A DNA stretch of 25,808 bases, from the IMG/VR virus record IMGVR_UViG_3300023229_000078, positions 1 to 25,808 of that record; one strand, 5' to 3'. Shown piece after piece: positions 485-22,786 of this stretch. A program made the translations under genes and the position numbers. This DNA is from a virus. The notes under the pieces are model-generated. The model was given only the letters and a program-made list of their open reading frames with translations, was not told where the DNA came from and searched no databases. Within the stretch, counting starts at the first letter, position 1, and every line of letters starts with the position of its first letter.

Positions 485-509
485 GTGTATAAAAATATAC
501 ACCGTGTAT
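485..509. promoter_or_regulatory. Palindrome GTGTATA-AAAA-TATACAC plus a third half-site
   Basis: Positions 485-502 form a perfect 7-bp inverted repeat with an AAAA spacer. It is followed at once by a further half-site, CGTGTAT (503-509). It fills the short gap between the VRR-NUC stop codon and the start of the replication gene. It could be a regulator-binding site, or its AT-rich core could be part of an internal promoter. The repeat is seen directly; the role is inferred. Confidence 0.45.
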
Positions 510-1096
510 CATTTGCAAGTCCGGCCGGATATGGCAAGCGTTTTCTTCCCGTCGGTGTCGGCGAGAACCTGGTTGATTTCCTCGCAGACCTGTCCGCGAG
601 TCATGCGACAAAACGGGTCTCGGATCTTGGATAAAAGTCCTCTGGCTGCGGCGAGTTGCTGCGCTAGGGTCGCCGTCACGGTTAGGGTGCTGTCTTCCAA
701 TTCAGCCAGGTGGTCCAGCCCTTCCCGGTAAGAGCGAATGACCCGGACGATAGCCCCGTTCGGAGCCGCCGCCAGTTCCCGGTGGCATTTGTATTGCTGC
801 GGAGTCGGATTCTTCCCCGGCAATTTCACTTCCCAGTGGACGCTCAGGCCGTGAATTTCAAAGGCGATGTCGGGCATCCCTGGCGCAATTTGGCTGCGTT
901 TTCGGGTGGGCTGCATTCGGGGCCGGTGCCCGCGACGGTATGCCAGACTGTAAAGCTGCCCCTGCAATTCCATTTCGGACTTGGCAACGGCACCCGCTTC
1001 AGCCTCGTCGTATGTCACTCCAGATTTACCAAAGGATTTCCGGTCCTTGGTGGACATCATGAGCTTTTGCTTGTCGGTCAAATCTCGGATATTCAT
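509..1096 (-). CDS. VRR-NUC family nuclease
   Basis: A 195-aa protein. The central region matches the VRR-NUC (PD-(D/E)XK) pattern: Glu41 in SEMELQ, Asp76 in PGMPDIAFE, Glu89 and Lys91 in HWEVKLPG, and Gln100 followed by a helix (TPQQYKCHREL), then GAIVRVIRSYREGLDHL. This family has structure-specific endonucleases, including Holliday-junction and flap-type enzymes, and in phages it sits among replication and recombination genes, as here. The residues beyond about 135 are an extension rich in short helices, and the whole is longer than minimal phage VRR-NUC proteins of about 100 aa. The start has a good ribosome-binding site (GGGAGG), and the ATG overlaps the stop codon of the upstream 60-aa gene. 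Substrate specificity cannot be read from the sequence. Confidence 0.85.
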   Translation of the reverse strand: MNIRDLTDKQKLMMSTKDRKSFGKSGVTYDEAEAGAVAKSEMELQGQLYSLAYRRGHRPRMQPTRKRSQIAPGMPDIAFEIHGLSVHWEVKLPGKNPTPQQYKCHRELAAAPNGAIVRVIRSYREGLDHLAELEDSTLTVTATLAQQLAAARGLLSKIRDPFCRMTRGQVCEEINQVLADTDGKKTLAISGRTCK

Positions 1097-1275
1097 TTAG
1101 CCTCCCGCAGTCCAGCGTTGTAAGCTCGCAACAAATCCAGAGTCGCGATGTCGTCAAGGCATAGGCAAAGGTCGCTGCAAAGGTTGCGGTAATAAAGTTC
1201 GTGCATAAGTTCTGATTTGGTTTTGGTTCCGTGGATTTTGTAAAGCTGAAGGATTATTAGATCACGCTCAGTCAT
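1093..1275 (-). CDS. Hypothetical 60-aa protein
   Basis: A short protein beginning MTERDLIILQLYKIHGTKTKSELM. It has an N-terminal helix pair resembling a small helix-turn-helix (TKSELMHELYYRN) and a Leu/Cys-rich C-terminal half (CSDLCLCLDD). It overlaps the VRR-NUC gene by 4 nt, so the two are probably translationally coupled. The ATG at 1275 has no Shine-Dalgarno sequence and lies just downstream of a stem-loop. No family is recognised. It could be a small DNA-binding or adaptor protein, but that is only inferred from the helix pattern. Confidence 0.6.
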   Translation of the reverse strand: MTERDLIILQLYKIHGTKTKSELMHELYYRNLCSDLCLCLDDIATLDLLRAYNAGLREAK

Positions 1276-1279
1276 AATT

Positions 1280-1316
1280 AAAAAGGGGTCCCGGCTGGGT
1301 GTTGATGCCCAACCGG
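1280..1316 (-). terminator. Stem-loop with U-tract between early genes (weak terminator or attenuator)
   Basis: On the minus strand CCGGTTGGG and CCCAGCCGG form a 9-bp stem with one G-U pair around an 8-nt loop (1291-1316). It is followed by GACCCC and then five Ts (1280-1284). The gap between stem and T-run is longer than in a strong terminator, so partial termination or mRNA processing between the SSB-like gene and the downstream nuclease genes is more likely than full termination. Confidence 0.45.
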
Positions 1317-1323
1317 AGATTGC

Positions 1324-1605
1324 TCAAAACGGGAGTGCCTTTGAGTCGTCTTGTTCGGTGGTAGGTTCATGACTGGCAGCGGGAGCTTTCTTAGTTGCGA
1401 TCTCTTTCCAGTTGCCAAGGATCGGCCCTTTCTCGCCAGCTTCCCGCGCTTCTTTTCCAAGGTCTTGCACGATGAATCCCATGTTCCCCCACTCGTCTTC
1501 CCCGTCTTTGTTCTCGAAAAAGGTCAGGTCCAGGTAAGTCCCTTTTTTACCCTTATAGAGTTTTTCTTTGATGATTTTTGTAACGTCGATTTGTGCTTTT
1601 CTCAT
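1324..1605 (-). CDS. Small SSB-like protein of the recombination cassette
   Basis: A 93-aa protein beginning MRKAQIDVTKIIKEKLYKGKKGTYLDL, with a short beta-rich body (TYLDLTFFENKDGEDEWGNMGFIVQDL). The C-terminal tail is acidic and flexible and ends DDSKALPF, which recalls the DDDIPF-type tip of single-strand-binding proteins that docks partner proteins. It follows the exonuclease and annealase genes, where phages often place an SSB. The resemblance is in the tail, size and position; the body is too short for a full OB-fold SSB of usual length, so the name is tentative. The start at 1605 is preceded by an A/C-rich leader (CCAAACATAAAAACATC) instead of a Shine-Dalgarno sequence. Confidence 0.6.
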   Translation of the reverse strand: MRKAQIDVTKIIKEKLYKGKKGTYLDLTFFENKDGEDEWGNMGFIVQDLGKEAREAGEKGPILGNWKEIATKKAPAASHEPTTEQDDSKALPF

Positions 1606-1635
1606 GATGTTTTTATGTTTGGTTTTTGGTGTTGG

Positions 1636-2271
1636 TTACTGATTGGGAATTTTGAGCCGTGGGAGAGCGTCGGCATAAGCCGCCTTATAGCTCGCCACAA
1701 ATTGCGCTAGAGCGGTTCCGAGTTTTGCGGTGTAGTCGTTTCGTTTAACGATGATATGCAACGGCATCAGGCCTTTTGCGTAGCTCCAGAAGTGCCATGT
1801 ATCCAAACCGGTGATTGCCATAGACCCGTGAACTTGCTGAATATATGCATCAGGAAGAACGCCATCTCTAATATATCCAATGTGAGTCTTTGGGCGTGGA
1901 CACTTGATCTCTACACCGGAAATAATTTCCTCTCCCGCCATAATTAATCCATCAGGAGAGCATCCGACAGTTGGATCGTCGCCTATCACGAAGCCCGCTT
2001 CCCTCACCGCTAGGCCAGTATGCTTTGAGAACTCTAACCTTGCCTCTGCCTCATACTCCTTCCCCCACTCCATCCAAAAGTTTCCAGACCATGACGGGAG
2101 GTTCTTAAAAAAGCATTCCTCAATTAATTCGTTTATAAAGTCGTCGGACTGCTTGGAGATTGCGCAGGTTTTGGCGGTGATGATCTTATCGAGATTTGAG
2201 GCAGTAATTTTCCCTTTCCTTATACCAATCCAATCATCTCCACCTTGAATTATATCCCAAATTACATTCAT
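1636..2271 (-). CDS. YqaJ-like viral recombinase exonuclease
   Basis: A 211-aa protein with the YqaJ/lambda-exonuclease fold motifs in order: WIGIRKGKITAS near residues 14-25, EWGKEYEAEARLEFS at 68-82 with the motif glutamate, GCSPDGL at 103-109 (metal-binding Asp107), VEIKCPRPKTH at 120-130 (Glu121, Lys123) and the downstream Gln145 in YIQQVHGSM. These residues form the two-metal site of 5'-3' double-strand exonucleases that make 3' single-strand tails. The gene overlaps the end of recT by 4 nt and has a strong ribosome-binding site (GGAGGACGG). Together with RecT and the SSB-like protein it forms a complete single-strand-annealing recombination set like lambda Exo/Beta. Its length is normal for the family. 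Confidence 0.92.
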   Translation of the reverse strand: MNVIWDIIQGGDDWIGIRKGKITASNLDKIITAKTCAISKQSDDFINELIEECFFKNLPSWSGNFWMEWGKEYEAEARLEFSKHTGLAVREAGFVIGDDPTVGCSPDGLIMAGEEIISGVEIKCPRPKTHIGYIRDGVLPDAYIQQVHGSMAITGLDTWHFWSYAKGLMPLHIIVKRNDYTAKLGTALAQFVASYKAAYADALPRLKIPNQ

Positions 2272-2924
2272 TCTCCGTCCTCCATATCGACGCTGTTTTC
2301 TGGCAACTCAGGCGGAGTAAACGGGTCAAGCGGTTCGGAAATCGCTTGCACTTGCTTTGCCGTCTCGAAGCCTTTCACGTCGCGCAACTCTTCCGCCGTT
2401 TGCATTCCCAACGTAATGTCCGGTGCATAGATTCGCGCGAAGAAAGCTCCTGCTCGATAGCGAAGCATCAAGTCAGGCATGGTCTTCCATTTGCTGCCCG
2501 CCTTTTCCGACCAGCCTTCTGCCTTAGCCATCTGCATTGAGACTTCCGGCCCCTCTACGATCTCGCCGCTTTCCTTGTCTGTCGTGACCGCAACGCAAGT
2601 TTTCGTCATGCCCTCGCCCGTCATCTTAAATTTCAGCGGGGTGAATCGGCCACTAGCGTTGACCATCGCAATGAGGAACGACGCTCTGAATCCTGGGCGA
2701 CCGTGGATGATGTCGATATTCTGAAGGACCATGAACGGGTCAGCCCCAAGACGCTTGGCGATATTAAGGCCGATGGCGCAGTTAGACATATTGCCCTGGA
2801 ATTCCTTCGGGATGAGGGTTGATGCTGCCAGCATTTTCGCTTGGCGTTGGACCAGTTCAAACGCCTCCGACTCGCGGGAGATTTGAAATTGCACGTTAGT
2901 GATTTGGGTCTCGGTTGCGCTCAT
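2268..2924 (-). CDS. recT: RecT-family single-strand annealing protein
   Basis: A 218-aa protein. It has the RecT-type N-terminus (AFELVQRQAKMLAASTLIPKEFQ), then NMSNCAIGLNIAKRLGADPF, the IHGRPGFRASFL segment, a WSEKAGSKWKTMPDLMLRYRAGAFFAR segment and TLGMQTAEELRDV. These are the hallmarks of RecT/Bet-like annealases that coat 3' single strands and pair them with homologous DNA. It is translationally coupled both upstream (4-nt ATGA overlap with the 91-aa gene) and downstream (overlap with the YqaJ exonuclease), and has a near-consensus ribosome-binding site (AAGGAGG). The C-terminus is short and acidic (SVDMEDGE), possibly a partner-binding tail. There is no sign of truncation. Confidence 0.92.
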   Translation of the reverse strand: MSATETQITNVQFQISRESEAFELVQRQAKMLAASTLIPKEFQGNMSNCAIGLNIAKRLGADPFMVLQNIDIIHGRPGFRASFLIAMVNASGRFTPLKFKMTGEGMTKTCVAVTTDKESGEIVEGPEVSMQMAKAEGWSEKAGSKWKTMPDLMLRYRAGAFFARIYAPDITLGMQTAEELRDVKGFETAKQVQAISEPLDPFTPPELPENSVDMEDGE

Positions 2925-3196
2925 TTCGATTCCTCCTTAACGAGTGTCATTCCGATAAGAGCAGCTTCTGCCCTCAGGTTTTTGATGCGCGTCCCCTCAA
3001 TCAGCTTTGAGGCGTCGATAGCCTTTTCCAGCGTCGTGCCACTCGCATTTCCGGTGCGTGTGAAAACATTCCAGAATGGCCCCCCCGACCCTTTCGTGAT
3101 GAGGAGGCAGACTGATTCAATCCCCTCGCGGTCTGTCGCAGCTTTCATTTCGGCAATGATGTCTTTTGGCGTTTCCGCCGGTGTTGTTGTATTCAT
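2921..3196 (-). CDS. Hypothetical 91-aa protein upstream of recT
   Basis: The ATG at 3196 (MNTTTPAETPKDI) is chosen over a longer frame to 3256 because the longer form overlaps the neighbouring gene and has a low-complexity Lys/Thr/Pro start. The product has a helical N-terminus, a central strand pair (IESVCLLITKGSGGPFWNVF) and a C-terminal helix ending VKEESK. Its 3' end overlaps the recT start by 4 nt (ATGA), so it belongs to the recombination operon and is probably made at a coupled level. The leader is AACCAAAATC without a Shine-Dalgarno sequence. No domain is recognised. Confidence 0.65.
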   Translation of the reverse strand: MNTTTPAETPKDIIAEMKAATDREGIESVCLLITKGSGGPFWNVFTRTGNASGTTLEKAIDASKLIEGTRIKNLRAEAALIGMTLVKEESK

Positions 3197-3218
3197 GATT
3201 TTGGTTTTAGTTGGTGGT

Positions 3219-3485
3219 TTATTCTCTGGGGCCGTCTTGGATGAGATTGTCCTCAATTGAGCTGAGGATGTCCGGGTCTATATAGTCCACGATGTCGAGC
3301 CGAGCGGTCGAGAACTGGCCAGTGACATCTCGGGTCTGGTGGACTAACTCGATACTCTGGATCTCAACCCCTGGGTCCTCGCCGGGGTAGCAGTCCTCAG
3401 GAGCCCCTGAGATATATGGTTCCGTGCCTGGGTCGTAGTCGTATTCGATTTCGACTTCGATTTCGATTGTTGTTCTTTTCGTCAT
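3219..3485 (-). CDS. Acidic hypothetical 88-aa protein
   Basis: The chosen start, ATG at 3485, gives MTKRTTIEIEVEIEYDYDP. The alternating hydrophobic/acidic strand (IEIEVEIEYDYD) is followed by a Pro/Gly/Glu-rich loop and a second half with strands and a C-terminal acidic helix (DILSSIEDNLIQDGPRE). It is strongly acidic overall, a trait shared by some phage DNA-mimic and anti-restriction proteins, but nothing specific supports that role. A longer frame to 3656 exists, but its extra 57 residues are shadow-like and overlap the small lipoprotein gene. It lies 22 nt before the next gene of the operon. Confidence 0.6.
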   Translation of the reverse strand: MTKRTTIEIEVEIEYDYDPGTEPYISGAPEDCYPGEDPGVEIQSIELVHQTRDVTGQFSTARLDIVDYIDPDILSSIEDNLIQDGPRE

Positions 3486-3516
3486 TTTTTTATGGGTTTG
3501 ATTTGGATTCTCGGGG

Positions 3517-3690
3517 TCAGGGTCTGTTGCCGTCGCGGTCCAGCCCGTCTGGCCCGGCTCCATGCCGCAAATTTTCGCACCATTCGCGCCATTTGAGGTC
3601 CTGCTGCTTTTTGGTGGCGAGTTCGGTGATTTTGCAGGAGGCCGCAAATGATGCAACGATCAGGCAGATAAGTGATAAGAGTTCGATCAT
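3517..3690 (-). CDS. Small lipoprotein-like or membrane-anchored protein (57 aa)
   Basis: A 57-codon gene with ATG at 3690 and TGA at 3517. The N-terminus MIELLSLICLIVASFAASCK is a hydrophobic segment ending in a cysteine at residue 19. This resembles a lipobox, or else a single transmembrane anchor with little positive charge before it. The rest is hydrophilic and helical (ITELATKKQQDLKWREW). The ATG overlaps the stop of the upstream 69-aa gene (ATGA), the third such overlap in a row, which supports both genes being real. Exported early phage lipoproteins are often superinfection-exclusion factors, but the sequence does not prove that role. Confidence 0.6.
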   Translation of the reverse strand: MIELLSLICLIVASFAASCKITELATKKQQDLKWREWCENLRHGAGPDGLDRDGNRP

Positions 3691-3896
3691 GATATTTTAG
3701 TTTTGTTGGTGATTTTGTTGGTGATTTTAGGACGCCAGCCCTTGCCAAAATTAAAGTTTCTGCCTTTTTCGTATCCGTCTTCATTTTTCTCAAGCCAGCG
3801 TGTGCAGGCAGCCCCAACGTCTGACAAGGTTTCACGGCCCATTCCCTCATGGCCGTCAGGGCTCAGGGTGAGGTCACGCCCATTCATGCGTTTCAT
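3687..3896 (-). CDS. Hypothetical basic 69-aa protein
   Basis: This reads from ATG at 3896 (MKRMNGRDLTLSPDGHEGMG) through a helix (RETLSDVGAACTRWLEKNED) to a Lys/Thr/Asn-rich tail (RPKITNKITNKTKIS). The frame stays open to 4031, but the upstream residues are Arg/Pro/Gly-rich and coincide with a separate coupled gene in another frame, so the internal ATG is preferred. It overlaps that gene by 4 nt upstream and the lipoprotein-like gene by 4 nt downstream. The tail is encoded by a near-repeat (GGTGATTTTGTT twice at 3706-3725), so its length may vary. No family is recognised. Confidence 0.6.
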   Translation of the reverse strand: MKRMNGRDLTLSPDGHEGMGRETLSDVGAACTRWLEKNEDGYEKGRNFNFGKGWRPKITNKITNKTKIS

Positions 3897-4054
3897 GATT
3901 GTTTGTGGGCCGAAAAAGCCATGAAGAATTGAGAGGGAGTCCCGAGCCAAGAATGTTTCGTGCCCCAGGTGACGACCCGGCGCGGAGATGAGGAAACGAC
4001 CCGGTGGGTCTCGCCGTCTTTGTGTTTCCATGAGGTGTGGGTTGCCGGGATCAT
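3893..4054 (-). CDS. Hypothetical 53-aa protein coupled to the RHH regulator
   Basis: The ATG at 4054 overlaps the TGA of the RHH gene, and its own TGA overlaps the ATG of the next gene. The product begins MIPATHTSWKHKDGETHRVV and continues as a compact set of strands with several Trp and His residues (VVTWGTKHSWLG) and an aromatic C-terminus (SQFFMAFSAH). The sequence looks like a small beta protein. No family is recognised. The main support is the unbroken chain of ATGA overlaps and a composition less Arg/Pro-biased than the competing frame across the same bases. Confidence 0.55.
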   Translation of the reverse strand: MIPATHTSWKHKDGETHRVVSSSPRRVVTWGTKHSWLGTPSQFFMAFSAHKQS

Positions 4055-4209
4055 TTCGATTCGAGTTCTTTTCGGAGCAACCGCGTCACAAAATGGCTGA
4101 ACGATTGATCTAAATTGGCTGCAGTTGTTTGCCCCTTTTTCAGGAGCGGTGACGGGATGGAGACGCTCACGCTGGTTCGCGTCTTTTTGGGCGATGCTTT
4201 TTGTTTCAC
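4051..4209 (-). CDS. Ribbon-helix-helix (Arc/CopG-like) transcription regulator, 52 aa, GTG start
   Basis: Reading from GTG at 4209 gives MKQKASPKKTRTSVSVSIPS, then PLLKKGQTTAANLDQSFSHF and VTRLLRKELESK. This fits a ribbon-helix-helix fold: a basic arm, one beta strand (TSVSVSIP, residues 12-19) that would pair with the second subunit to contact DNA, helix A (PLLKKGQTTAANLD) and helix B (SFSHFVTRLLRKELE). It is the first gene of the leftward operon and faces the divergent promoter region, the usual place for an early-lytic switch regulator. No ATG exists in this frame between the upstream in-frame stop and the GTG. A palindrome covers its start codon, suggesting autoregulation. The fold is inferred from pattern only. 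Confidence 0.65.
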   Translation of the reverse strand: MKQKASPKKTRTSVSVSIPSPLLKKGQTTAANLDQSFSHFVTRLLRKELESK

Positions 4210-4220
4210 AAGCGAAACAA
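4201..4220. promoter_or_regulatory. Operator-like palindrome TTGTTTC-N6-GAAACAA over the RHH start
   Basis: TTGTTTCACAAGCGAAACAA has perfect 7-bp arms (4201-4207 and 4214-4220) around ACAAGC. It overlaps the GTG start of the RHH gene and a possible -10 box of the leftward promoter, as expected of an autorepressor site. Its outer arms also resemble those of parS (TGTTTC...GAAACA), though the spacing is 2 bp longer than in standard parS. Confidence 0.55.
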
Positions 4221-4244
4221 TACCATGGCGGAATAATAGATCAA
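4217..4244 (-). promoter_or_regulatory. Possible leftward early promoter
   Basis: On the minus strand TTGATC (4244-4239) and TATTGT (4222-4217) are spaced by 16 bp. Transcription would begin near 4210, at or next to the GTG start of the RHH gene, giving a nearly leaderless message. The upstream stretch is AT-rich. Both boxes are imperfect, so this is a weak prediction. Confidence 0.35.
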
Positions 4245-4316
4245 GATATTTCTTATTATTTTTTACGCGTTCTTCATAACTCGCTAGGAATCAAACTCAT
4301 CCACGCGAAAAAAGTT

Positions 4317-4344
4317 TTGACTCTTAACGCGGTTAAGGTATGAT
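4317..4344 (+). promoter_or_regulatory. Rightward promoter with a palindrome between its boxes
   Basis: TTGACT (4317-4322), a 16-bp spacer and TATGAT (4339-4344) make a good sigma70-type promoter about 30 nt before the methyltransferase ATG. The spacer contains CTTAACGCGGTTAAG (4323-4337), a perfect 6-bp inverted repeat around GCG. A dimeric protein bound there would block RNA polymerase. Confidence 0.65.
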
Positions 4345-4375
4345 TCTCGCAAATGACCCCAAAAATTGATCCCGC

Positions 4376-5545
4376 ATGAAAAAGCATAAATACAACATTC
4401 TCCCCGAAGCGCAACCCGACGAACTGGCCGAGCTTATTGCCGACATGACCGCGCACGGTTACGACGCCAAGCAGCCGATCACAGTCTATCAGGGCGATAT
4501 TCTCGACGGATGGAATAGGCATTGCGCAGCGGTTGCGGCTGGCGTGTCGCCTACTATTGTCACATTTACCGGCACAGATGCAGACGCCGTGTTTTTTGTT
4601 TTGCGAATGGGTAAGCGACGGAACCTGAACTCGGGACAGCGTGCAGCCGTGGCAACCGAAGCAGAAGACCTGCTGAAGGTGATTGCGGACGCCGTGGATA
4701 AGGAGCGCCGGGAGAAACAGGCAGCGGAACTAACCAAGACGCACGCGATGAAAGCCGAAGGTGTTTGTAACAATAAATTGTTACAAATAGATAAACGCGA
4801 TCCCAACGCCGTTTCAACGCCAGCCAAAGCCGCCGAGATGTTCGGCACAAACCGCACCTACATAAACCAAGCCGCAAAGCTCAAGGCAACGTCACCGGAA
4901 ACACTTGCGAAAGTGAAGGCGGGAACTGTAACAATGACCCAAGCCCTTCGCGAAATAAAAGAAGCCAAGCGTGAAGCTCGCCGCGAAGAGAACCGGGCAA
5001 AGGTCGCAATGGTTGAATCCCCTGCCGACGTTGCGGAATCGGGTGCGAAGTTTTCCACCATCGTCATTGACCCGCCGTGGGATTGGGGCGACGAAGGCGA
5101 CAACGACCAACTCGGACGAGCAAAGGCTGATTACGCCACCATGAGTTTTTCGCAACTTATGGACCTTCCCGTTGAACCGTTGGCCGATGACGATTGCCAC
5201 CTGTATCTCTGGATCACGAACCGTAGCCTGCCCAAAGGATTTTCACTCATAGAAAAATGGGGATTCCGCTACGTCACTGCGCTAACCTGGGTCAAGCCAC
5301 ATTTCGGAATGGGCAACTACTTCCGGGGCCAAACCGAGCACGTCCTTTTCGGTGTGCGGGGAAGCCAGCCGTTAAAAAGAAAGGACGTGGGGACCGTGTT
5401 TAGCGCGTCGCGTGGACCCAACGGACACAGTTCAAAGCCCGTCGAGTTTTACGACCTTGTGGAAAGTTGCTCCCCTGGCCCGTACCTCGAGATGTTCAGC
5501 CGATCAGATCGGCAGGACTGGCAAACGTGGGGGGAGGGAGCATGA
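4376..5545 (+). CDS. ParB-like/MT-A70 N6-adenine DNA methyltransferase
   Basis: A 389-aa two-part protein. Residues 1-120 look like a ParB/Srx nuclease-like N-domain: an early ELAELIADMTAHGYD, then PITVYQGDILDGWNRHCAA (31-52, the G-x-x-R box), followed by a helix-turn-helix-like stretch at about 148-170 (TPAKAAEMFGTNRTYINQAAKL). Residues 225-389 are an MT-A70 methyltransferase with the catalytic IDPPW (231-235), LYLWITNR (277-283), TALTWVKP (301-308) and HSSKPVEFYDLVE (351-363). It should transfer methyl from S-adenosylmethionine to adenine in DNA at a site probably chosen by the N-terminal part. No restriction partner of classical type is present, so protection of phage DNA or regulation is likelier. 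The start has no Shine-Dalgarno sequence. Its stop overlaps the next ATG. Confidence 0.9.
   Translation: MKKHKYNILPEAQPDELAELIADMTAHGYDAKQPITVYQGDILDGWNRHCAAVAAGVSPTIVTFTGTDADAVFFVLRMGKRRNLNSGQRAAVATEAEDLLKVIADAVDKERREKQAAELTKTHAMKAEGVCNNKLLQIDKRDPNAVSTPAKAAEMFGTNRTYINQAAKLKATSPETLAKVKAGTVTMTQALREIKEAKREARREENRAKVAMVESPADVAESGAKFSTIVIDPPWDWGDEGDNDQLGRAKADYATMSFSQLMDLPVEPLADDDCHLYLWITNRSLPKGFSLIEKWGFRYVTALTWVKPHFGMGNYFRGQTEHVLFGVRGSQPLKRKDVGTVFSASRGPNGHSSKPVEFYDLVESCSPGPYLEMFSRSDRQDWQTWGEGA
4764..4787. repeat. 24-bp inverted repeat inside the methyltransferase gene
   Basis: TTTGTAACAAT, AA, ATTGTTACAAA: two perfect 11-bp arms with a 2-bp centre, located in the linker between the ParB-like domain and the HTH-like region. 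It is far more AT-rich than its surroundings and encodes a linker (CNNKLLQ). It could be a protein-binding site, perhaps for the protein's own DNA-binding part, or an mRNA hairpin. Confidence 0.8.
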
Positions 5546-6096
5546 CCTACGACTTCCAAGAGCGCCTAGAATTCTCGAAGGGATCACGCCAAACAACCGA
5601 TGCTGCCACAATAATGCAACTTTTGGATGGGTGCGCTTCCGTAGATTCTGCGACAACTGAGATGGACAAGCGGGGCGTTGATTATATCGCCCGGCTCAGG
5701 GGCGGGGCAAATGTATTTGTGGACGCAAAAACGCGGTCAAAAGGTTGTTCAAAATACTGGCAGGGGCAGCCGGAACTAGCAATCGAGAAATGGTCAGTCA
5801 TGCCGGGGGGGAAGTTTGAGACGCGGACGGGGAAGGCCGGATGGTCGCTAGACGAGGCGAAGCTGTGCCACATGATTCTTTACACATTCGACCCTTCGGA
5901 CAGTGAGTTGGCGTTCTTGATTCCGTTCCAGTCACTCAGGATGGCCGCCCGCAGAATGATTAATGATTGGATGGGGCGCTTCAAAGTGGACGTGCAAACA
6001 AGCGGCGGTTGGCAGTCACAGGCCGTATTTGTGCCAGCCTCGGAAATCATAATGGCAATGGAAGAAACGTATTCAGCAATAACCAAAATATCATGA
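5542..6096 (+). CDS. PD-(D/E)XK nuclease-like phage protein
   Basis: A 184-aa protein starting at the ATG that overlaps the methyltransferase stop (GGAGGGAGCATGA, a good ribosome-binding site). A longer frame from 5467 is rejected because it lies inside the methyltransferase. The middle shows a restriction-endonuclease-like pattern: MDKRGVDYIARLRGG with Asp47, then FVDAKTRSKG with Asp61 and Lys63 as D-x-K, followed by PELAIEKWS. The second half has AKLCHMILYTFDPSD and FLIPFQSLRMAARR. Proteins of this shape are common in phages and usually unnamed. Tight coupling to the methyltransferase suggests a joint task, for example marking and checking DNA. Nuclease activity is inferred from the motif spacing alone. 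Confidence 0.7.
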   Translation: MTYDFQERLEFSKGSRQTTDAATIMQLLDGCASVDSATTEMDKRGVDYIARLRGGANVFVDAKTRSKGCSKYWQGQPELAIEKWSVMPGGKFETRTGKAGWSLDEAKLCHMILYTFDPSDSELAFLIPFQSLRMAARRMINDWMGRFKVDVQTSGGWQSQAVFVPASEIIMAMEETYSAITKIS

Positions 6097-7669: not shown

Positions 7670-7955
7670 TAAATACCACGACTGCGGCCACAAGCTGCGA
7701 ATAAATGACAAGCGAAAAAGGTCAAGTCCCGCGAATGTCGAGAGGGTGGATCGTGCTGGTATGCGTATCAGCGTGGCATCGGAGGTGTGCCATAAATGCT
7801 GGAGCACAGGCAAGGTAAACGCCATCAAGATGACCAATAAAGACGGAGAATGGGAAGTACGCGGCGCGACTTGCGAAGACTGCAACGGCACAGGTGCGGT
7901 CCGCGCGTATGCGCATACCGCAAAAGTCAGCCACAAGGGAGCAAGAAACCAATGA
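7656..7955 (+). CDS. DnaJ-type zinc-finger protein (99 aa)
   Basis: Starts at MAKPDKYHDCGHKLRINDKR and carries two CxxC-x-G-type knuckles: CHKCWSTGKV and, about 30 residues later, CEDCNGTGAV. This is the pattern of the DnaJ cysteine-rich (zinc-binding) domain in a half-size version. An additional Cys/His pair (DCGH) lies near the N-terminus. The J-domain is absent, so a chaperone role is not implied; phages carry many such free zinc-finger proteins. It overlaps the previous gene by 14 nt and the next by 4 nt. Confidence 0.65.
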   Translation: MAKPDKYHDCGHKLRINDKRKRSSPANVERVDRAGMRISVASEVCHKCWSTGKVNAIKMTNKDGEWEVRGATCEDCNGTGAVRAYAHTAKVSHKGARNQ

Positions 7956-8218
7956 AAACTAAGTCCGACATAGATATTGGAATCGCGGTAGCATGGGCGA
8001 CCACGCCTCCCGGATCACGCCGGACCCTCGAAGAGATCGCGGCATTCTGTGGGGTGGGGAAAAGCACGATCTACATGATCGAGGTTGCCGCTCTCAGAAA
8101 ATTACGGAAGGCGCTCATGAAAACCAGAGACCCAGAGCTGCGGGAACTCTTGGCCGAAGTCTTTCCTCATATTTTTCCGAACACCACGATCACCAATCCA
8201 TCCCAAAAGAAATCATGA
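7952..8218 (+). CDS. Sigma-region-4-like helix-turn-helix protein (88 aa)
   Basis: MKTKSDIDIGIAVAWATTPP leads into GSRRTLEEIAAFCGVGKSTI and YMIEVAALRKLRKALMKTRD. The segment TLEEIAAFCGVGKSTIYMIEVAALRKLR follows the region 4.2 pattern of sigma70 factors (E-I-A-x(3)-G-V-x-x-x-x-I-x-x-I-E-x-x-A-L-x-K-L-R). A lone region 4 in a phage accessory operon could redirect host RNA polymerase, act on late promoters or act as a simple HTH regulator. The ATG overlaps the previous stop. The C-terminal 25 residues have no recognisable motif. Fold confidence is good; role is inferred. Confidence 0.7.
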   Translation: MKTKSDIDIGIAVAWATTPPGSRRTLEEIAAFCGVGKSTIYMIEVAALRKLRKALMKTRDPELRELLAEVFPHIFPNTTITNPSQKKS

Positions 8219-8554: not shown

Positions 8555-8839
8555 ATGAGACGATACGACCCAATACAACGATACGACCAAGGCGGAACTG
8601 GCCTTGGAGAGATGGAGCAATGCCACGACGGAGAATATGTCCGGTTCGAGGATGCCAAGCGGATGGCGCAAGACGCGGAAAAGGTAATGAGGCACTGCCG
8701 AATGTTTCTCGCTGACCGGAGGGGATACCATGCCGATGAATCTTTGGAGCGAGCGTCAATCATCGGGGGCATCGACGCCTTTATTTCAGCTAACACCTTG
8801 ATAACCTCAACGCAGCACAAGCAAACCGACCCTAAATGA
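8555..8839 (+). CDS. Hypothetical 94-aa protein
   Basis: MRRYDPIQRYDQGGTGLGEM is followed by EQCHDGEYVRFEDAKRMAQD, a helix with Cys and His residues (KVMRHCRMFLADRRGYHADE) and a C-terminal helix. The GGTGLGEMEQC segment is a third occurrence of the motif seen twice in the preceding gene. The D-G-E-Y-V-R-F-E-D-A segment recalls many short phage proteins of unknown role. A start further upstream (8504) would overlap the preceding gene, and the ATG at 8555 is preferred. No Shine-Dalgarno sequence. Confidence 0.6.
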   Translation: MRRYDPIQRYDQGGTGLGEMEQCHDGEYVRFEDAKRMAQDAEKVMRHCRMFLADRRGYHADESLERASIIGGIDAFISANTLITSTQHKQTDPK

Positions 8840-8958
8840 CTCGCAGCAAACGAGAACGGCTCAAACGTCGCCAAGAGGCCGGAAGGGGGCATCAATGGGT
8901 GTACTCAAAATGCATGGCATCCCTTGACCAGAACGCCCCGGCTGATAACCAGCCATGA
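8836..8958 (+). CDS. Possible 40-aa basic protein overlapping the endolysin end
   Basis: The ATG overlaps the stop of the preceding gene (ATGA). The product begins MTRSKRERLKRRQEAGRGHQ and continues WVYSKCMASLDQ. It is very basic at the N-terminus. The last 67 bases lie opposite the 3' end of the endolysin gene, so the two operons converge with overlapping coding ends. The start overlap supports it; short length and antisense position count against it. Confidence 0.4.
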   Translation: MTRSKRERLKRRQEAGRGHQWVYSKCMASLDQNAPADNQP

Positions 8959-9461
8959 CGCGAGAACACTTCCATAATTTCAATCGGCATCGTGGCAACG
9001 AGCGGCCAGTGAGTGCGGTTGCCATTGTTTCCTGCGTCGAGGTCGATGGCTGCCCCTCTAGCGTGGAGGGATGGCGTAGAGCCGCCCCGCATGAGGCGAT
9101 TATTGTAACAGCCGTCATAGGTTGTAGCGGCTTTCATGATCTTTTTGTTGTTGCCATATAGGGATTTGATCTCAGTAAAGACATCGAGCAGCGTCGGAAC
9201 GCACTCCCGATGCACCCTTGTAAAATTCACTGGTCGTCCCTCGTAGTACATGGGGATCGGAAATTGCATCCGTTCGAGTTTCGATTCGTCGCCCGCTTTA
9301 CCATAAAACGCCGTCAGCGATCTCTGGTCGGAGCGGGGTGCTGGGTTCGGCTGCGGCATCATTGCCAAGAGGTGAGCTTGGCAGGCAGCGGTGGATCTCG
9401 GTCCCCAGAACCCATCTGGGTTAGCTCCCACGCGTTTTTGCAAATCGGCGATGTCGATCAT
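8892..9461 (-). CDS. Endolysin, peptidase M15 (VanX/L-Ala-D-Glu type)
   Basis: A 189-aa protein. Residues 1-32 look like a short peptidoglycan-binding repeat (IADLQKRVGANPDGFWGPRST). The M15 domain follows, with the zinc ligands SLHARGAAIDLD (His133, Asp140) and HFEYTH (His184 near the C-terminus). Such enzymes cut peptide cross-links in peptidoglycan, commonly between L-Ala and D-Glu or in D-Ala-containing stems. There is no signal peptide, so release would depend on a holin; several small membrane proteins precede it. The ATG overlaps the stop of the upstream 48-aa gene. It is the last gene of the late operon. Confidence 0.88.
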   Translation of the reverse strand: MIDIADLQKRVGANPDGFWGPRSTAACQAHLLAMMPQPNPAPRSDQRSLTAFYGKAGDESKLERMQFPIPMYYEGRPVNFTRVHRECVPTLLDVFTEIKSLYGNNKKIMKAATTYDGCYNNRLMRGGSTPSLHARGAAIDLDAGNNGNRTHWPLVATMPIEIMEVFSRHGWLSAGAFWSRDAMHFEYTH

Positions 9462-9604
9462 GGAGCGGAAAGGTCAGGGGTTGCCGTGATGTCTGGATAA
9501 ACGGGGTCGAGATGGCAGCGGGAAAAAGTCATGGCGACGATTCCGGCCAGGATTATGACGAGGAAAACGGCTGCCCAACGCGAAGAGTTTGTTGCGGTCG
9601 TCAT
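9458..9604 (-). CDS. Small membrane protein, possible spanin (48 aa)
   Basis: The start at 9604 gives MTTATNSSRWAAVFLVIILA, with one transmembrane segment (about residues 10-28) followed by FSRCHLDPVYPDITATPDLS. A cysteine ends the hydrophobic part and the remainder is Pro-rich, features of outer-membrane spanin lipoproteins, though the lipobox is weak. ATG overlaps the preceding stop (TAATG) and the TGA overlaps the endolysin ATG. The lysis-cassette position supports a membrane role in host lysis. A longer frame starting at 9676 lies inside the upstream gene and is not favoured. Confidence 0.6.
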   Translation of the reverse strand: MTTATNSSRWAAVFLVIILAGIVAMTFSRCHLDPVYPDITATPDLSAP

Positions 9605-9819
9605 TACCATGTCGCGTGGGTTTGAATTTTTGCGGAGAAAATCGGATACGGAATCCCGCTGTCTGAAACTTTCCATCCAGTGACGATTTTGCCCTCTGCG
9701 TTTTCGACCAGCTGAGTAAAAAAACCGCGCTGGTCCTCGATGGGAACGAGTTGAAGGATATCGTCAGGCACTTTGCCAAGAAACTCCCCGTAGCGGTCAA
9801 CCTCGAAGCCGCGATTCAT
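9604..9819 (-). CDS. Hypothetical 71-aa protein in the lysis cassette
   Basis: MNRGFEVDRYGEFLGKVPDD, then ILQLVPIEDQRGFFTQLVEN and GKIVTGWKVSDSGIPYPIFS. A soluble strand-rich protein with no membrane segment. The ATG overlaps the stop of the 30-aa membrane peptide gene. The frame extends to 9936, but the extra part is a shadow of that peptide and of the holin-like gene. No family is recognised. Confidence 0.55.
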   Translation of the reverse strand: MNRGFEVDRYGEFLGKVPDDILQLVPIEDQRGFFTQLVENAEGKIVTGWKVSDSGIPYPIFSAKIQTHATW

Positions 9820-9908
9820 AATGTCAGTGGGAATCGCCAGAGTATGAGCGCGATAAATGCAAACGTTGAAAGGATAACTGCGGCGACGTGCATTGTGATA
9901 ATGTTCAT
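9816..9908 (-). CDS. 30-aa single-span membrane peptide
   Basis: MNIITMHVAAVILSTFAFIA followed by LILWRFPLTL: almost entirely one transmembrane helix. Its ATG overlaps the stop of the holin-like gene, and its TGA overlaps the next ATG (ATGA on both sides), which is strong positional support for so short a gene. It could be a holin, pinholin or antiholin subunit. Confidence 0.5.
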   Translation of the reverse strand: MNIITMHVAAVILSTFAFIALILWRFPLTL

Positions 9909-10162
9909 GGCCGCCTCCCTGGCTTGATCTCAGCATGAGGATTAAAGGGACCCCCGGGAATAGTTTTCCCGATTTGATCCTTTGCTCGAATGCGTCCTGA
10001 GATGGTGACGATCATTGAGACCAGAGCAATCGTGGCTAATACCGCATCTGTGATCTGCCCCGCGAATTCCTGCACGTCGTATTTGAAAAAGATGGCGACG
10101 ATGGCAAGGATGCCGGACACAAGCGCGGCAAGAATCGTGCGCGATGAATACCAAGGTTTCAT
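9905..10162 (-). CDS. Holin candidate (85 aa, two membrane segments)
   Basis: MKPWYSSRTILAALVSGILA, with a first hydrophobic segment (residues about 9-27), a short polar loop (KYDVQEFAGQ) and a second segment (AVLATIALVSMIVTISG), then a basic, Pro/Gly-rich tail ending KPGRRP. Size, two membrane spans, basic tail and position two genes before the end of the cassette fit a class II holin that opens the inner membrane for the endolysin. A GTG one codon upstream is an alternative start; the ATG at 10162 overlaps the preceding stop (TGATG). Confidence 0.65.
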   Translation of the reverse strand: MKPWYSSRTILAALVSGILAIVAIFFKYDVQEFAGQITDAVLATIALVSMIVTISGRIRAKDQIGKTIPGGPFNPHAEIKPGRRP

Positions 10163-10464
10163 CACATTTTGCCGCGTGCGATAAGGTTTTGAAGTGCAAG
10201 TTCCACAGTGGCATTGACGACCGAGGTGGACGCCTGAATTCCGGTAGCAATGGCCCGAGCTTGGATCTCGTCAACGGCCTGCTTGCGCTTGATTTCCCCG
10301 GTGGCCTTGCTGTCTGCAAGAGATAGGACAACATCAAGAGCGATGGGCGCGAGTTGCTCCAAGAGGGTTGCCGCAGACGATGCTAGGATCGGCGCGAGGA
10401 AATTAAATAATGCAACGGATGAGCCAGTAATCCAGGCCCATAGTCGGAGGAATGTGTTCTTCAT
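10162..10464 (-). CDS. Holin-like or membrane-associated protein (100 aa)
   Basis: MKNTFLRLWAWITGSSVALF, then NFLAPILASSAATLLEQLAP and a Lys/Ala-rich amphipathic helix (DSKATGEIKRKQAVDEIQAR). One hydrophobic segment covers residues 8-35, and the rest is helical. The Ala-rich helix with alternating charge resembles phage LLH-type holins and phage membrane proteins of unknown role. It overlaps the gene before it by 4 nt and the holin candidate after it by 1 nt. Which of the three membrane proteins is the true holin cannot be decided here. Confidence 0.6.
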   Translation of the reverse strand: MKNTFLRLWAWITGSSVALFNFLAPILASSAATLLEQLAPIALDVVLSLADSKATGEIKRKQAVDEIQARAIATGIQASTSVVNATVELALQNLIARGKM

Positions 10465-10766
10465 AATTTTTCTTTGACGTGTTCGAGAGCCCGCGTGTTG
10501 TCCGCAAGTGCTTTAGTTGTTCCGGCCAGCAATATAGCAAGCTCCCGGTTGGTGGTGATGAGATGCTCCGTAAATTCTTTACTCAGCACCGCAAATTCCA
10601 GTCGGGCTTGGTGGATTTGCGCCGTGAAATATCGAGTCATCCACGCGCCGCAAATCAGGAAAATTACCAGCATGGCGACGAACATCCAGCGGTCGGTTTG
10701 TTGGGCCATAAAATTTGCAGTTTCAAAGAGACCAGGAAGGTCGGTGGGATCGGGGATAGGCGGCAT
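10461..10766 (-). CDS. Membrane protein with coiled coil (101 aa)
   Basis: MPPIPDPTDLPGLFETANFM leads to one transmembrane segment (WMFVAMLVIFLICGAW, residues 27-42), followed by a long helix with coiled-coil character (QARLEFAVLSKEFTEH, ALADNTRALEHVKEKL). The one-span plus periplasmic coiled-coil design is that of inner-membrane spanins (Rz type), though Rz proteins are usually longer. First gene of the membrane-protein cluster. No Shine-Dalgarno sequence. Confidence 0.6.
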   Translation of the reverse strand: MPPIPDPTDLPGLFETANFMAQQTDRWMFVAMLVIFLICGAWMTRYFTAQIHQARLEFAVLSKEFTEHLITTNRELAILLAGTTKALADNTRALEHVKEKL

Positions 10767-10795
10767 GATATAAAATTGCTAAAGAGCACTCAGCC

Positions 10796-11212
10796 TCATG
10801 GTTCTGGCGTTGGCTCCGGCACGGGATCAATCGTCACGGTGCCGTCTTCGTTGATCGTGATGGCGGGAATGCGGCCGTTGATGGCGGCGAGGCGAGCGAG
10901 GCCAACGGCGTCCCCTTGCGCAGTGAGGAACCCGGACACTAGCTCGCCAAATGCCTGATTAATAGCAAACACCGAAGCGGCCTTGTCGCCCAGCGCGGCC
11001 AGCACGGCAGCGGGATCGGGCGCGGACCATAGTCGCTGGCTGGCATCGTCGAGTTGGTTAAGGAGTGCGTCGCGAGTCTGAGCGGGCGCAATGAGCAACT
11101 CGCGCGCCGTCCGCTGTGCTTGCGTCTCTGGCTCTGTGGTCAGGAGAGATTGAGCGTGACCGTGCAGGGTGAGGGCCGCAAGGGCCGCGAGGATTGGGAT
11201 TAGGTTTTTCAT
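10796..11212 (-). CDS. Exported hypothetical protein in the tail fibre region (138 aa)
   Basis: The N-terminus MKNLIPILAALAALTLHGHA has the n-h-c layout of a Sec signal peptide with likely cleavage at GHA|QS. The mature part is helical and Ala/Leu-rich (TRDALLNQLDDASQRLWSAP, ASVFAINQAFGELVSGFL), and the end is a short strand and Pro/Glu tail (TINEDGTVTIDPVPEPTPEP). It follows the fibre-like gene, which also has a signal peptide ending HA|Q, with only a 6-nt gap. A signal peptide is unusual for a virion part, so this product may act in the envelope, for example in adsorption control. Confidence 0.7.
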   Translation of the reverse strand: MKNLIPILAALAALTLHGHAQSLLTTEPETQAQRTARELLIAPAQTRDALLNQLDDASQRLWSAPDPAAVLAALGDKAASVFAINQAFGELVSGFLTAQGDAVGLARLAAINGRIPAITINEDGTVTIDPVPEPTPEP

Positions 11213-11218
11213 AAATTC

Positions 11219-12814
11219 TTACTGCTCGGTCACGCGGACGGATTGCAGATAAAGGATGTCCGTGTTGGTGTCGCCGCCGTTCGTACGGATGGCATAGGCA
11301 CTAATAAAAATTTGCACAGCCGTTGAGGGGATTGCCACGGATGCCGATTCGATCAACAGGGGATTGCCCGCCGTGGTCGGGGCGGCGTAGTCTGCTCCCG
11401 TTGCGCCATCTCCGAAGGTGGCTGTTGCGTTTCCTCCCGCCGTCATAAGAAATCCGCCATTACCGCTCCCGTTGATGGCGGCGGCGTTAAGGCATCCGCC
11501 TCGTAACCGGAGCCTCAGATTGCCGGCACTGGTGCCGCTAACTGCCACTACCAATCCGATTTTGACCGTTTTCCCGGCCCATTCTGCCGGGTTAAGCTCG
11601 GCTTCCAGGACCGCGCTATCGGCACCGTCAGCGAAGCTCACGACTTGGGCGGTGTAAGCACTGGTGACAGTGAGTGCTGCATTGCCGTAAGTGCTCATCT
11701 TTGCGGCACGCCACGTGAGACCGGCCTTCGTGCGCCGGAAGTAGGCGTTGGGGGTGGTGACTGTCCCCGCGTTGATCGTCACGGAATCTCCGCTGGCGTC
11801 TCCAAGGGTCGTGTTGCCATCGACTAGGACCGAGCCCGTAACAGTCCCGCCAGCCAGTGGCAAGGCATCCGTGATCCCGTAGCCGGAGAGCGTCGTCGGA
11901 GTGCTGCCGATCTGCGACCAGATCATGCCCGTGAGCCCGGAGCCGTCGCCGATAAACGCCCCGCCGCTGATCGTGCCGGTGTTGATCGTCGTGAGCGCGA
12001 GCGTCCCGCTGGTGATGGTGCCCCCGGCTGCTGCGACACCGCCGAGGCCAACAAGCGTCTGATTCCCGGTGTTGAGGCCGGAGGACGTGCCGGAGAAAAT
12101 GCCGTCCTGCGTAGCGAGAGTGCCGAGGCCGAGGGTGCCCCGTCCGGCGGTTGCGTCGGCATCATCCAATAGGCTTAGGCCGAAGGCGCTGGCTTGGCTG
12201 TCGTCGAGCTTTAGATCCAGCGCGGTCTGACCTGAGGTGGAGACAGGCTTGGCCGCATCGGATGTGTTGTCCACATTTCCGAGCCCCACGTCACCTTTGA
12301 CGAGGCCCGTAGGGGTGGTGATTACCGGAGATGTCAGGGTCTTGTTGGTGAGCGTTGCCGTCGCAGCGTCCTTTGTGGCATCGCTGGTGTTGTCCACGTT
12401 GCTGAGGCCAACCTGCGATTTGGTCATGTCGGTGAGCGCGGAGCCATTGCCGTTAAATGATCCGGTCGCAGTCACGTTGGTCGCATTCACGTTGGTCGTA
12501 TTCACGTTGTTGGTCGCATTCACGTTGTTTTCCGCATACACGTTGGTCGCATCCACGTCGCCGGTCGCAGTCACGTTGCCGCTCGCAGTCACGGTGACAG
12601 GCGTGAGAGTCCCCCCGCTGATCGTGCCGGTGTTGATCGTCGTGAGCGCGAGCGTCCCGCTGGTGATGGTGGTAATCCCGGTAAAGGCATTGGTGCCAGT
12701 CCATGTTAGCTCTCCCGTGGCGGTCCCGTTAAATTTCGGGGACGAGATGTTGTTTTGAGCATGGACGGACCCCGAAATGAAAAGGATGGCGAGAATGTAT
12801 TTAGGCAATTGCAT
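11219..12814 (-). CDS. Tail-fibre-like repeat protein with a signal peptide (531 aa)
   Basis: The start ATG at 12814 gives MQLPKYILAILFISGSVHA|Q, a classic signal peptide. A longer frame to 12883 is rejected because it extends into the upstream gene. The body is low-complexity and beta-rich: NVNATNV-type Asn repeats near residues 80-120, two copies of TITSGTLALTTINTGTISGG, and the fibre motifs SQVGLSNVDNTSDA and GDVGLGNVDNTSDAAKP, known from many phage tail fibres. The C-terminal part (RTKAGLTWRAAKMSTYGNAA onward) is a jelly-roll-like domain that may bind carbohydrate. It overlaps the previous gene by 14 nt. Either the signal peptide displays a fibre-like adhesin on the host, or the hydrophobic start has another use. 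Confidence 0.75.
   Translation of the reverse strand: MQLPKYILAILFISGSVHAQNNISSPKFNGTATGELTWTGTNAFTGITTITSGTLALTTINTGTISGGTLTPVTVTASGNVTATGDVDATNVYAENNVNATNNVNTTNVNATNVTATGSFNGNGSALTDMTKSQVGLSNVDNTSDATKDAATATLTNKTLTSPVITTPTGLVKGDVGLGNVDNTSDAAKPVSTSGQTALDLKLDDSQASAFGLSLLDDADATAGRGTLGLGTLATQDGIFSGTSSGLNTGNQTLVGLGGVAAAGGTITSGTLALTTINTGTISGGAFIGDGSGLTGMIWSQIGSTPTTLSGYGITDALPLAGGTVTGSVLVDGNTTLGDASGDSVTINAGTVTTPNAYFRRTKAGLTWRAAKMSTYGNAALTVTSAYTAQVVSFADGADSAVLEAELNPAEWAGKTVKIGLVVAVSGTSAGNLRLRLRGGCLNAAAINGSGNGGFLMTAGGNATATFGDGATGADYAAPTTAGNPLLIESASVAIPSTAVQIFISAYAIRTNGGDTNTDILYLQSVRVTEQ
11964..12671 (-). repeat. 57-bp exact direct repeats in the fibre gene (11964-12020 and 12615-12671)
   Basis: Two identical 57-nt copies lie about 650 bp apart in the same reading frame and encode the TSGTLALTTINTGTISG segment. 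Such exact repeats allow recombination that would delete the region between them (about 217 codons) in frame. They may also serve as domain-swap points with other phages. Confidence 0.85.
12470..12597 (-). repeat. Degenerate 12/15-nt tandem repeats (Asn-Val-Asn-Ala-Thr)
   Basis: About eight imperfect units of the form GTCGCATTCACGTTG on the plus strand follow one another. On the minus strand they encode an alternating N-V-N-A-T-N-V run in the fibre-like protein. Units differ by single bases and in length by multiples of 3, so they can expand or contract without a frameshift. Confidence 0.75.
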
Positions 12815-14366
12815 AATAATGGAGCAGGTAATTGGCTGAGTCTGTGGGGCCGGAGAAATTGGCGGTGAAGCCAGTAGTGGCAATGCTTGCGGCCTCGATG
12901 GCTGCGTAAATCAAACCCTCGCCGGAAGGCGCTTCGATGGTGCAAATGATCGTGGTCGGCGCAACCGTCAACGCGGTGGAAAAGGTGACGTCTAATGTTG
13001 ATACGCCGCTCCCGATGGCTTCCGCGCCGTATCGTCCCACGCCCGGAACCGGGGTTGGGCTCAGGTTTCCAGCCTTGATAATGTCCTCAGAAATTGAGAC
13101 GGAAGCGGAATAGGTTTGGATCTTGCCGGACTCTGTGACTTCAACCTCGAAAACCAAGGTCAATTCGCTGGCCCCACTAACGTCAAAAAGGTCCTGAAGT
13201 GAAAAGGTGGAAAGCGTCAATGTCCCGGTCTTGCCAAGCGGTGCGGAAAGGATTGCGTCCTCGACCGTGATTTGCGGAAAGTTTGCGTTTTGTTTGCTGC
13301 CCGTAAAGCTCAAGACGTACGCGACGCCAGGGGTCCCGCTCACGCTGACGTTATCGGTCCCGATAGTATCGATAGCAACGAGCGCGGTTTGAACTGCGGA
13401 GACGGAAGCGTCAAAATCAATTTCGGCGGTCGTCCGCGCGGGAGTGGTGATCGTGCCAGTTCCCGAGTCGGCGGTGGCTGTGGTTATCGCTGCGCCGCCT
13501 GAAGTGGCTGCAATCGTGAATGTGGTTGGAGACGGTGCCGCTACAATATAATAAGTGGTGCCCTCTGTCCAGTTGGCCTCGTTAGTAAATCCCGTGCCGA
13601 CTACTGGCTGGCCGACCGCAAAGCCGTGATTGGCCGTGGTGGTAAAGACTCCCGCAACAACTGCCGCCGTGACGGAGCGCGTATCCGAAGGGATAGTAAT
13701 GGAGAAAGTTCCGCCAACTGGAGCGGGCGCGAAATCAATTTGCTGGACCTCACTGGCCGTCAATGTCCCGGCAGTGACTGTGGACGGGGTAGCGGTGACG
13801 GTGCTGGCCAGGTTTGTAAAGCTGGTTTGGAGCGCGACGGGATCTGGCGAAAGAAAGATTTCCTGAACTTCCTGCACTGACCCCGACCCGGCAATGCGCT
13901 CAGAAACGATTGCAGTGGTGTCAGGGACTAGCGAGCTGTCTGTGACGGTGAACGCCGCCTGTGCTGCCGCTGTGACGAATGTAATGGCGTAGCGCGAACC
14001 GAACGCCGATTTGGTGATGGTGACGCCGCCCGCACTGGTGACAGATGCCAGAGCATTGACCGCCGTGGAGAGCGCGGCCGCAGTGATATTGTAGGCCAGC
14101 GCGGCGGTTGTGTCCCCGCTGAGAGTGATTGTCCAGGTGCCGCTGGTGGGAACTGCCCGCAAATCGCCGAGCCCAACTTTGATGCTGGCACCGGATTTAT
14201 CCAGATACGAATACGGCCGGCCAAAAATGCCCGTTTGTTTTAAGAAATGGACTTCAACGGTGTCAGAGTCGCCATTGAAAAAGTCCGCCGGAAGCAATCT
14301 GCCGGAATCTGTATCCGACTTGACAAACGCAAGGTCGGTTGTATCGATGAAAAACTTGCGAGCCAT
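12801..14366 (-). CDS. Large beta-rich tail tip/baseplate protein (521 aa)
   Basis: The N-terminal 70 residues (MARKFFIDTTDLAFVKSDTD onward, with VHFLKQTGIFGRPYSYLDKS) form a separate domain of a type seen in phage tail proteins. Two copies of a beta-repeat follow: GTWTITLSGDTTAALAYN ... GGVTITKSAFGSRYAITF near 75-135 and GTFSITIPS ... DNVSVSGTPGVAYVLSF near 220-345. A C-terminal domain from about residue 430 ends in NYLLHYYAIA. It lies between the cysteine-rich tail-tip genes and the fibre-like gene, so it probably links the tail tip to receptor-binding parts. Start ATG at 14366 is preceded by TTTGACAC 14 nt upstream and no Shine-Dalgarno sequence. The repeat family is not named with certainty. 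Confidence 0.65.
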   Translation of the reverse strand: MARKFFIDTTDLAFVKSDTDSGRLLPADFFNGDSDTVEVHFLKQTGIFGRPYSYLDKSGASIKVGLGDLRAVPTSGTWTITLSGDTTAALAYNITAAALSTAVNALASVTSAGGVTITKSAFGSRYAITFVTAAAQAAFTVTDSSLVPDTTAIVSERIAGSGSVQEVQEIFLSPDPVALQTSFTNLASTVTATPSTVTAGTLTASEVQQIDFAPAPVGGTFSITIPSDTRSVTAAVVAGVFTTTANHGFAVGQPVVGTGFTNEANWTEGTTYYIVAAPSPTTFTIAATSGGAAITTATADSGTGTITTPARTTAEIDFDASVSAVQTALVAIDTIGTDNVSVSGTPGVAYVLSFTGSKQNANFPQITVEDAILSAPLGKTGTLTLSTFSLQDLFDVSGASELTLVFEVEVTESGKIQTYSASVSISEDIIKAGNLSPTPVPGVGRYGAEAIGSGVSTLDVTFSTALTVAPTTIICTIEAPSGEGLIYAAIEAASIATTGFTANFSGPTDSANYLLHYYAIA

Positions 14367-14393
14367 TTACTAGCGGACTGGTGTCAAAGTTGA

Positions 14394-15253: not shown

Positions 15254-15256
15254 AGC

Positions 15257-19272: not shown

Positions 19273-19292
19273 TTGGTATTTTGGTTTAGTTT

Positions 19293-19766: not shown

Positions 19767-19802
19767 TTGGTATATGTCGGGCCACGAAGGGCCGGGTCAT
19801 TT

Positions 19803-20138: not shown

Positions 20139-20158
20139 ACCACTGCGGCGGTGTCAAA

Positions 20159-20895: not shown

Positions 20896-20919
20896 ACAAA
20901 GGGCACGGTGTCACATTAC

Positions 20920-20956: not shown

Positions 20957-20976
20957 AATTTGCTGGGGTGAATTAC

Positions 20977-22131: not shown

Positions 22132-22161
22132 GGTATTTTATTTGTGTGAGATTGGAGTTTT

Positions 22162-22329: not shown

Positions 22330-22331
22330 AT

Positions 22332-22766: not shown

Positions 22767-22786
22767 GCCATGGTTGGCGTGTCAAA

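Follow-up and report, generated by a model that had tools for sequence, protein, structure and literature searches.

Positions 4051-4376 of the window, as we call the whole 25,808-base virus record analysed here, are interpreted with moderate confidence as a tailed-phage cassette of divergent, autoregulated early promoters, in which a small RHH-like regulator, RHH-A, and its putative operators are exchanged as a unit. According to this model, a leftward promoter PL would drive RHH-A and then the recombination operon, and a rightward promoter PR would drive an accessory ParB-MT-A70 methyltransferase operon. RHH-A would be produced first, from PL via a leaderless message, and its dimers would bind dyads containing TAAY over the PL -35 box (4232-4260) and the PR spacer (4323-4337). 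Early in infection it would repress PR as well as its own operon, as Arc-type small phage RHH repressors do. Regulator and operators would be inherited or swapped jointly, and flanking genes would be kept or swapped independently.

Two putative regulator types at the divergent point

A 32,916-base contig (L002/G001) includes the window at 100.0% identity. Almost all genes point leftward, the exception being the rightward methyltransferase module, and positions 4210-4352 form the sole divergent point seen in the phage. A divergent early control region had been proposed here in the first-pass annotation, and this is supported; an RHH-like gene is the first leftward gene, and the predicted promoters PL and PR stand back to back (Table 1). 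That annotation had omitted the dyad at 4232-4260, the PL -35/-10 pair, the mini-ORF at 4353-4379 and a 24-bp palindrome at 4764-4787. The leftward operon comprises g3687, g3517, g3219, g2921, RecT, YqaJ exonuclease, g1324, g1093 and g509 and is largely retained behind both regulator types described below.

Table 1. Features of the control region and its surroundings, in window coordinates
Feature	Position	Strand	Basis or remark
Conserved leftward early operon 3' of RHH-A	509..4031	-	Pfam/PHROG and relatives
RHH-A, 52 aa, GTG start 4209, first leftward gene, proposed autoregulator	4051..4209	-	ORF, weak profile matches
Exchanged segment (type A vs type B)	4058..6084	.	left edge RHH stop; right edge ~6085 (L091) or 6648 (L149)
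Palindrome 2, TTGTTTC-N6-GAAACAA	4201..4220	.	exact; probably coincidental
Predicted leftward promoter PL, -35 TTGATC (4244-4239), N16, -10 TATTGT (4222-4217)	4217..4244	-	relatives
Candidate operator at PL, dyad AATAATA-N15-TATTATT around -35	4232..4260	.	covariation
Predicted rightward promoter PR, -35 TTGACT (4317-4322), N16, -10 TATGAT (4339-4344)	4317..4344	+	10/12 consensus; relatives
Candidate operator at PR, palindrome 1, CTTAACGCGGTTAAG	4323..4337	.	position, conservation, chance estimate
Mini-ORF MTPKIDPA*	4353..4379	+	stop overlaps methyltransferase start (ATGA)
ParB-like N-domain + HTH + MT-A70 methyltransferase, first rightward gene, exchangeable	4376..5545	+	Pfam, PHROG

Searches with the RHH protein, the methyltransferase and a degenerate form of the promoter pattern led to one small set of type-A contigs, namely L002, L003 (nearly identical to L002), L004, L005 and L079, and all type-A comparisons rest on the four distinct sequences among them. 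In all five contigs found, RHH-A co-occurs with a spacer that extends from the mini-ORF start to a point slightly upstream of the start of RHH-A. The spacer is 147 bp long in each, with no indels and 23 variable columns. In L079 the control region is almost unchanged, being 93.6% identical to window positions 4035-4377. Among the listed upstream minus-strand ORFs of the distant methyltransferase relatives L006-L073 no RHH protein was recognised by eye, and control-region comparisons were therefore not drawn from them.

Type B consists of L091, reached via the RecT gene, and L147, L148 and L149, reached via the first leftward gene of L091. These contigs carry a different first gene (57 codons) and a different spacer in the RHH-A slot, behind which the leftward operon, g3687-YqaJ, is kept in outline. 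The 57-aa product, RHH-B (MELPRLNISVKETMKKAIILACAKSSPRETITDFARKAFFAEL...), has an RHH-like pattern by eye and gave no match to an RHH family or any other library entry. Homology to the window breaks at 4057, at the RHH stop codon, and is found again from 6085 (L091) or 6648 (L149) onward. L149 is otherwise very close to the window over most of the structural genes compared: the major capsid protein is 100% identical, and the DNA is 99.3% identical over 11961-16456, 98.0% over 17379-23602 and 96.3% over 23646-25808. Identity is lower over 8807-11818 (82-86%), and part of the tape-measure gene (16457-17378) did not align. Regulator gene and control region are exchanged together, with the junction at the RHH stop codon, as expected of an immunity cassette; we infer that the exchanged DNA would be operator. 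The type-B spacers contain four GCGCA/GCGC boxes at offsets 0, 16, 24 and 32, in exact 8-bp register, and three boxes in register arose in 0 of 5000 shuffles. It is weakly suggested that two of the GCGCA boxes supply TTGCGC as a possible -35 in either direction. Iterated half-sites or boxes in the type-A spacer did not exceed those in shuffles.

That the first leftward gene encodes a 52-aa RHH protein was part of the first-pass annotation; the reading frame and its position were borne out, and the RHH assignment reached only sub-threshold scores. RHH-A, which is 94-96% identical in L005, L079 and L004, matches Pfam CopG_antitoxin with E=0.006 (0.003-0.007 across searches; 17.8 bits against a cutoff of 28) and a PHROG Arc-like repressor with E=0.04-0.06, both below threshold. 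The two matches cover the same residues and both families are of the RHH type. RHH-A likely belongs to the RHH family, the fold itself being the weakest step of the model. Single-chain AlphaFold2 models of RHH-A and RHH-B (pLDDT 75 and 70) are of low confidence and show mainly a C-terminal helix and no beta-strand, and PDB sequence searches returned nothing credible. Among annotated phages, RHH-A gave matches only at E of 1 or more and the control region no nucleotide match; searches of GTDB genomes for RHH-A and for the promoter pattern found neither.

The top Pfam match, together with the small gene g3687 that follows RHH-A within 20 nt, would also fit an antitoxin paired with g3687, with the palindromes as the operator of the pair. 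We regard this as very unlikely. L079 has RHH-A and lacks g3687, and type-B contigs have g3687 behind another first gene; since each occurs without the other, the pair is not obligate, and an obligate adjacent toxin partner of RHH-A was not found. Furthermore, g3687 itself matched no Pfam or PHROG family.

Predicted promoters and candidate operators

The -35 box of PR is invariant among the relatives and its -10 box reads TATGAT or TATTAT. Palindrome 1, CTTAACGCGGTTAAG, has a 6+3+6 architecture and occurs once in the window. It had been placed in the first-pass annotation exactly between the rightward -35 and -10 boxes, and both its position and the boxes are confirmed. A perfect 6+n+6 palindrome is expected by chance in a 16-nt spacer of the same composition with p ~0.004 (~0.4%). 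The palindrome is intact in L004 and has lost one pair in L005 and L079 (GTTACG, 5/6 kept), so that at least five of the six pairs are preserved in every relative. With 2 of 15 columns variable, its conservation does not exceed that of the spacer on average (23 of 147), and a kept palindrome of this size appears in 17% of whole-spacer shuffles. We consider palindrome 1 a plausible candidate operator.

Palindrome 2 likewise lies where it had been described, exact and spanning the GTG start of the leftward ORF. Of the two palindromes only palindrome 1 looks functional; in each of L004, L005 and L079 one or two pairs of palindrome 2 are broken. Its right arm is the leftward -10 box on the minus strand and its left arm is codons 1-3 of RHH-A. 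As an operator it was rejected, being broken in all three divergent relatives and explained by the PL -10 box and the RHH-A codons; probably it is a coincidence. In first-order Markov sequences generated from the 175-nt region, 40% had at least one palindrome with 6-bp arms and 6% had two palindromes, one with an arm of at least 7; the presence of two palindromes is therefore unremarkable.

From the different sequences of the two palindromes, the first-pass annotation had suggested two regulators, one perhaps encoded outside the window or being the ParB-like methyltransferase. In such an arrangement RHH-A would bind one palindrome, and the other would be bound by the ParB-HTH domain or by a small protein with a sigma-70 region-4-like HTH encoded at 7949-8218 (+). 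The methyltransferase does have a ParB-HTH-like segment (E=0.05; PHROG 1033), and the small protein matches Pfam Sigma70_r4 above the curated cut-off (E=3e-6). Yet with palindrome 2 broken in all divergent relatives and accounted for by the -10 box and start codons, the argument for a second regulator is not supported. Binding of palindrome 1 by the ParB domain is disfavoured as well: the GTTACG variant is shared by L005 and L079, which differ in ParB type, and hence palindrome 1 fails to track the ParB domain, and L079 swaps the ParB protein while its control region stays nearly identical. Nothing ties the 7949-8218 protein to the control region. Two regulators thus appear distinctly unlikely.

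PL is the only minus-strand match in the window to its promoter pattern, and its -10 box, TATTGT in the window, is TATTAT or CATTAT in relatives. In the dyad around its -35 box the only variable arm columns are 4237 and 4255, which are mutual partners. They form T:A in the window and L005, are unpaired (T/G) in L004 and form C:G in L079, where the arms read AATAACA/TGTTATT, a compensatory change. A kept dyad with a compensated pair is found in ~0.2% of local column shuffles (p ~0.002, in a test picked post hoc, after the pattern was seen) and a kept dyad without the compensation condition in 9.5%. We propose this dyad as a better candidate for the leftward operator than palindrome 2. TAAY is present in every half-site of the dyad and of palindrome 1, making a single regulator for both possible, as judged from four sequences; the arm spacings of the two proposed operators differ (N3 in palindrome 1 vs N15 in the dyad).

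The same numbers bear on the view that PL and PR are unregulated, constitutive back-to-back early promoters, that the dyads arose by chance in an AT-rich spacer and that RHH-A acts on host promoters or in phage DNA partition. The spacer-wide probability of kept dyads, 0.1-0.17, and palindrome columns as variable as the remaining spacer are in line with this view. It leaves aside, however, the joint replacement of RHH gene and spacer at sharp junctions, the conspicuous box array of type B and the compensated pair in L079, and we consider it unlikely.

Start codons, the mini-ORF and the methyltransferase

The GTG at 4209 lies 7 nt past the PL -10 box and the ATG at 4353 lies 8 nt past that of PR. 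With start codons this close to both -10 boxes, the early messages are predicted to begin near the start codon and to be leaderless. A Shine-Dalgarno motif is found in few window genes; together with the start codon positions, this makes leaderless early expression directly testable.

In L079 the ATG matching 4353 is the start codon of a complete, alternative ParB-MT-A70 gene; its product (MTPKIDPAFQKLIPPLSPEEL...) shares 36% identity with the methyltransferase of the window. DNA homology between the window and L079 ends at 4377. For both reasons the most plausible reading of the mini-ORF is a vestige of the 5' end of an alternative methyltransferase gene that was replaced. Translational coupling between the mini-ORF and the methyltransferase is possible. 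The methyltransferase of the window matches MT-A70 (E=9e-25) and PHROG 359, 21315 and 1033; its slot holds the other ParB-MT-A70 gene in L079, and the gene is absent from this slot in L091, L147 and L149. Fusions of phage ParB-fold domains with DNA methyltransferases were surveyed in general in 2025 (PMC12704722). The window protein resembles these in joining a ParB-like N-domain to a DNA methyltransferase in a phage, but its partner is MT-A70, for which the survey reports an enrichment among fusions from archaea.

The hypervariable linker of the methyltransferase gene also contains the strongest palindrome of the window, a perfect 24-bp sequence at 4764-4787 (TTTGTAACAATAAATTGTTACAAA), which is missing from L004 and L005. 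A type-B phage carries an N6_N4 methyltransferase (PF01555) and a helicase-like gene, called by eye and with no Pfam match, between g509 and the replication gene (L151:6125-8622, minus strand); the window has neither at this place, and this type-B phage lacks ParB-MT-A70 at the control region. At L158:14834-15772 (minus strand), near the terminase, a TET-associated glycosyltransferase (PF20691, E=1e-43) adjoins a separate ParB_N protein at 15709-16338, possibly indicating DNA hypermodification.

A further motif, TTTGACAC (once TGTGACAC, and TCTCACAC before the capsid gene), stands 5' of late-gene start codons with 12 nt between (14 at 14388). Sites of this type precede the genes at 25431, 22786, 20915, 20158 and 14388 on the minus strand, and one lies upstream of 22131. 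TGACAC occurs 14 times on the minus strand and once on the plus strand. TTTGACAC is found four times each in the L149 and L002 contigs, on the same strand, and the reversed-pattern control gave 0. It may serve as an initiation signal other than Shine-Dalgarno or as a site for late transcription.

Relation to known switches and phage lifestyle

The control region looks like an unusual form of a familiar type of phage switch. In the ImmI region of P22, Arc is a ~50-aa RHH repressor beside a divergent promoter, with short dyad operators between promoter elements. RHH-A is similar to Arc and other small phage RHH repressors in its size of ~50 aa, its RHH-like pattern, its place as first gene at a divergent promoter and the candidate dyads between promoter elements. 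Unlike Arc, it is linked to this group by weak profile matches only, no ant or mnt partner was recognised here, and the phage, in which it precedes a RecT/YqaJ operon, has no recognisable integrase. Lambdoid immunity regions (cI/cro, oR/oL) offer a second comparison: regulator and control DNA are exchanged as a cassette among otherwise near-identical phages, the early promoters diverge, and the cI message of lambda made from PRM is leaderless, a property only predicted here. Here, in contrast, one small regulator is present, RHH-like rather than helix-turn-helix, and the probably complete type-B record has no PF00589 integrase and no HTH_3 match over cut-off. MetJ operators are tandem 8-bp met boxes. 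The palindromic TGCGCA-like boxes of type B share the 8-bp register, but their sequence is different, the protein was not matched to MetJ, and type A lacks an array.

An exact repeat of 1973 bp at the ends of the 34.4-kb L149 contig (L150:1-1973 and the final 1973 bases of L151) makes it probable that the contig, classed as linear in IMG/VR, is a complete genome of ~32.4 kb assembled as a circle. Searches of the L149 and L002 contigs gave no match to the phage integrase family PF00589 and none over cut-off to HTH_3. As no PF00589 integrase was found, we do not claim membership in temperate immunity systems. A bolder reading, which we consider tentative and rather unlikely, is that in integrase-free, probably virulent phages swappable RHH/operator cassettes define heteroimmune-like groups within a set of nearly identical phages, with both early messages leaderless and the methyltransferase translationally coupled to a vestigial leader of eight codons, the remnant of a previous gene exchange. 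If the exchange is what it seems, immunity-like regulator/operator exchange, known from temperate phages, would extend to minimal RHH regulators without an integration gene, and the two cassettes in near-identical genomes would provide matched pairs for studying operator specificity and superinfection exclusion. A replication-region protein contains a run of VD repeats that differs in length between two of the phages (L157:2839-3729, minus strand, corresponding to window 1-~480, vs L151:5203-6093).
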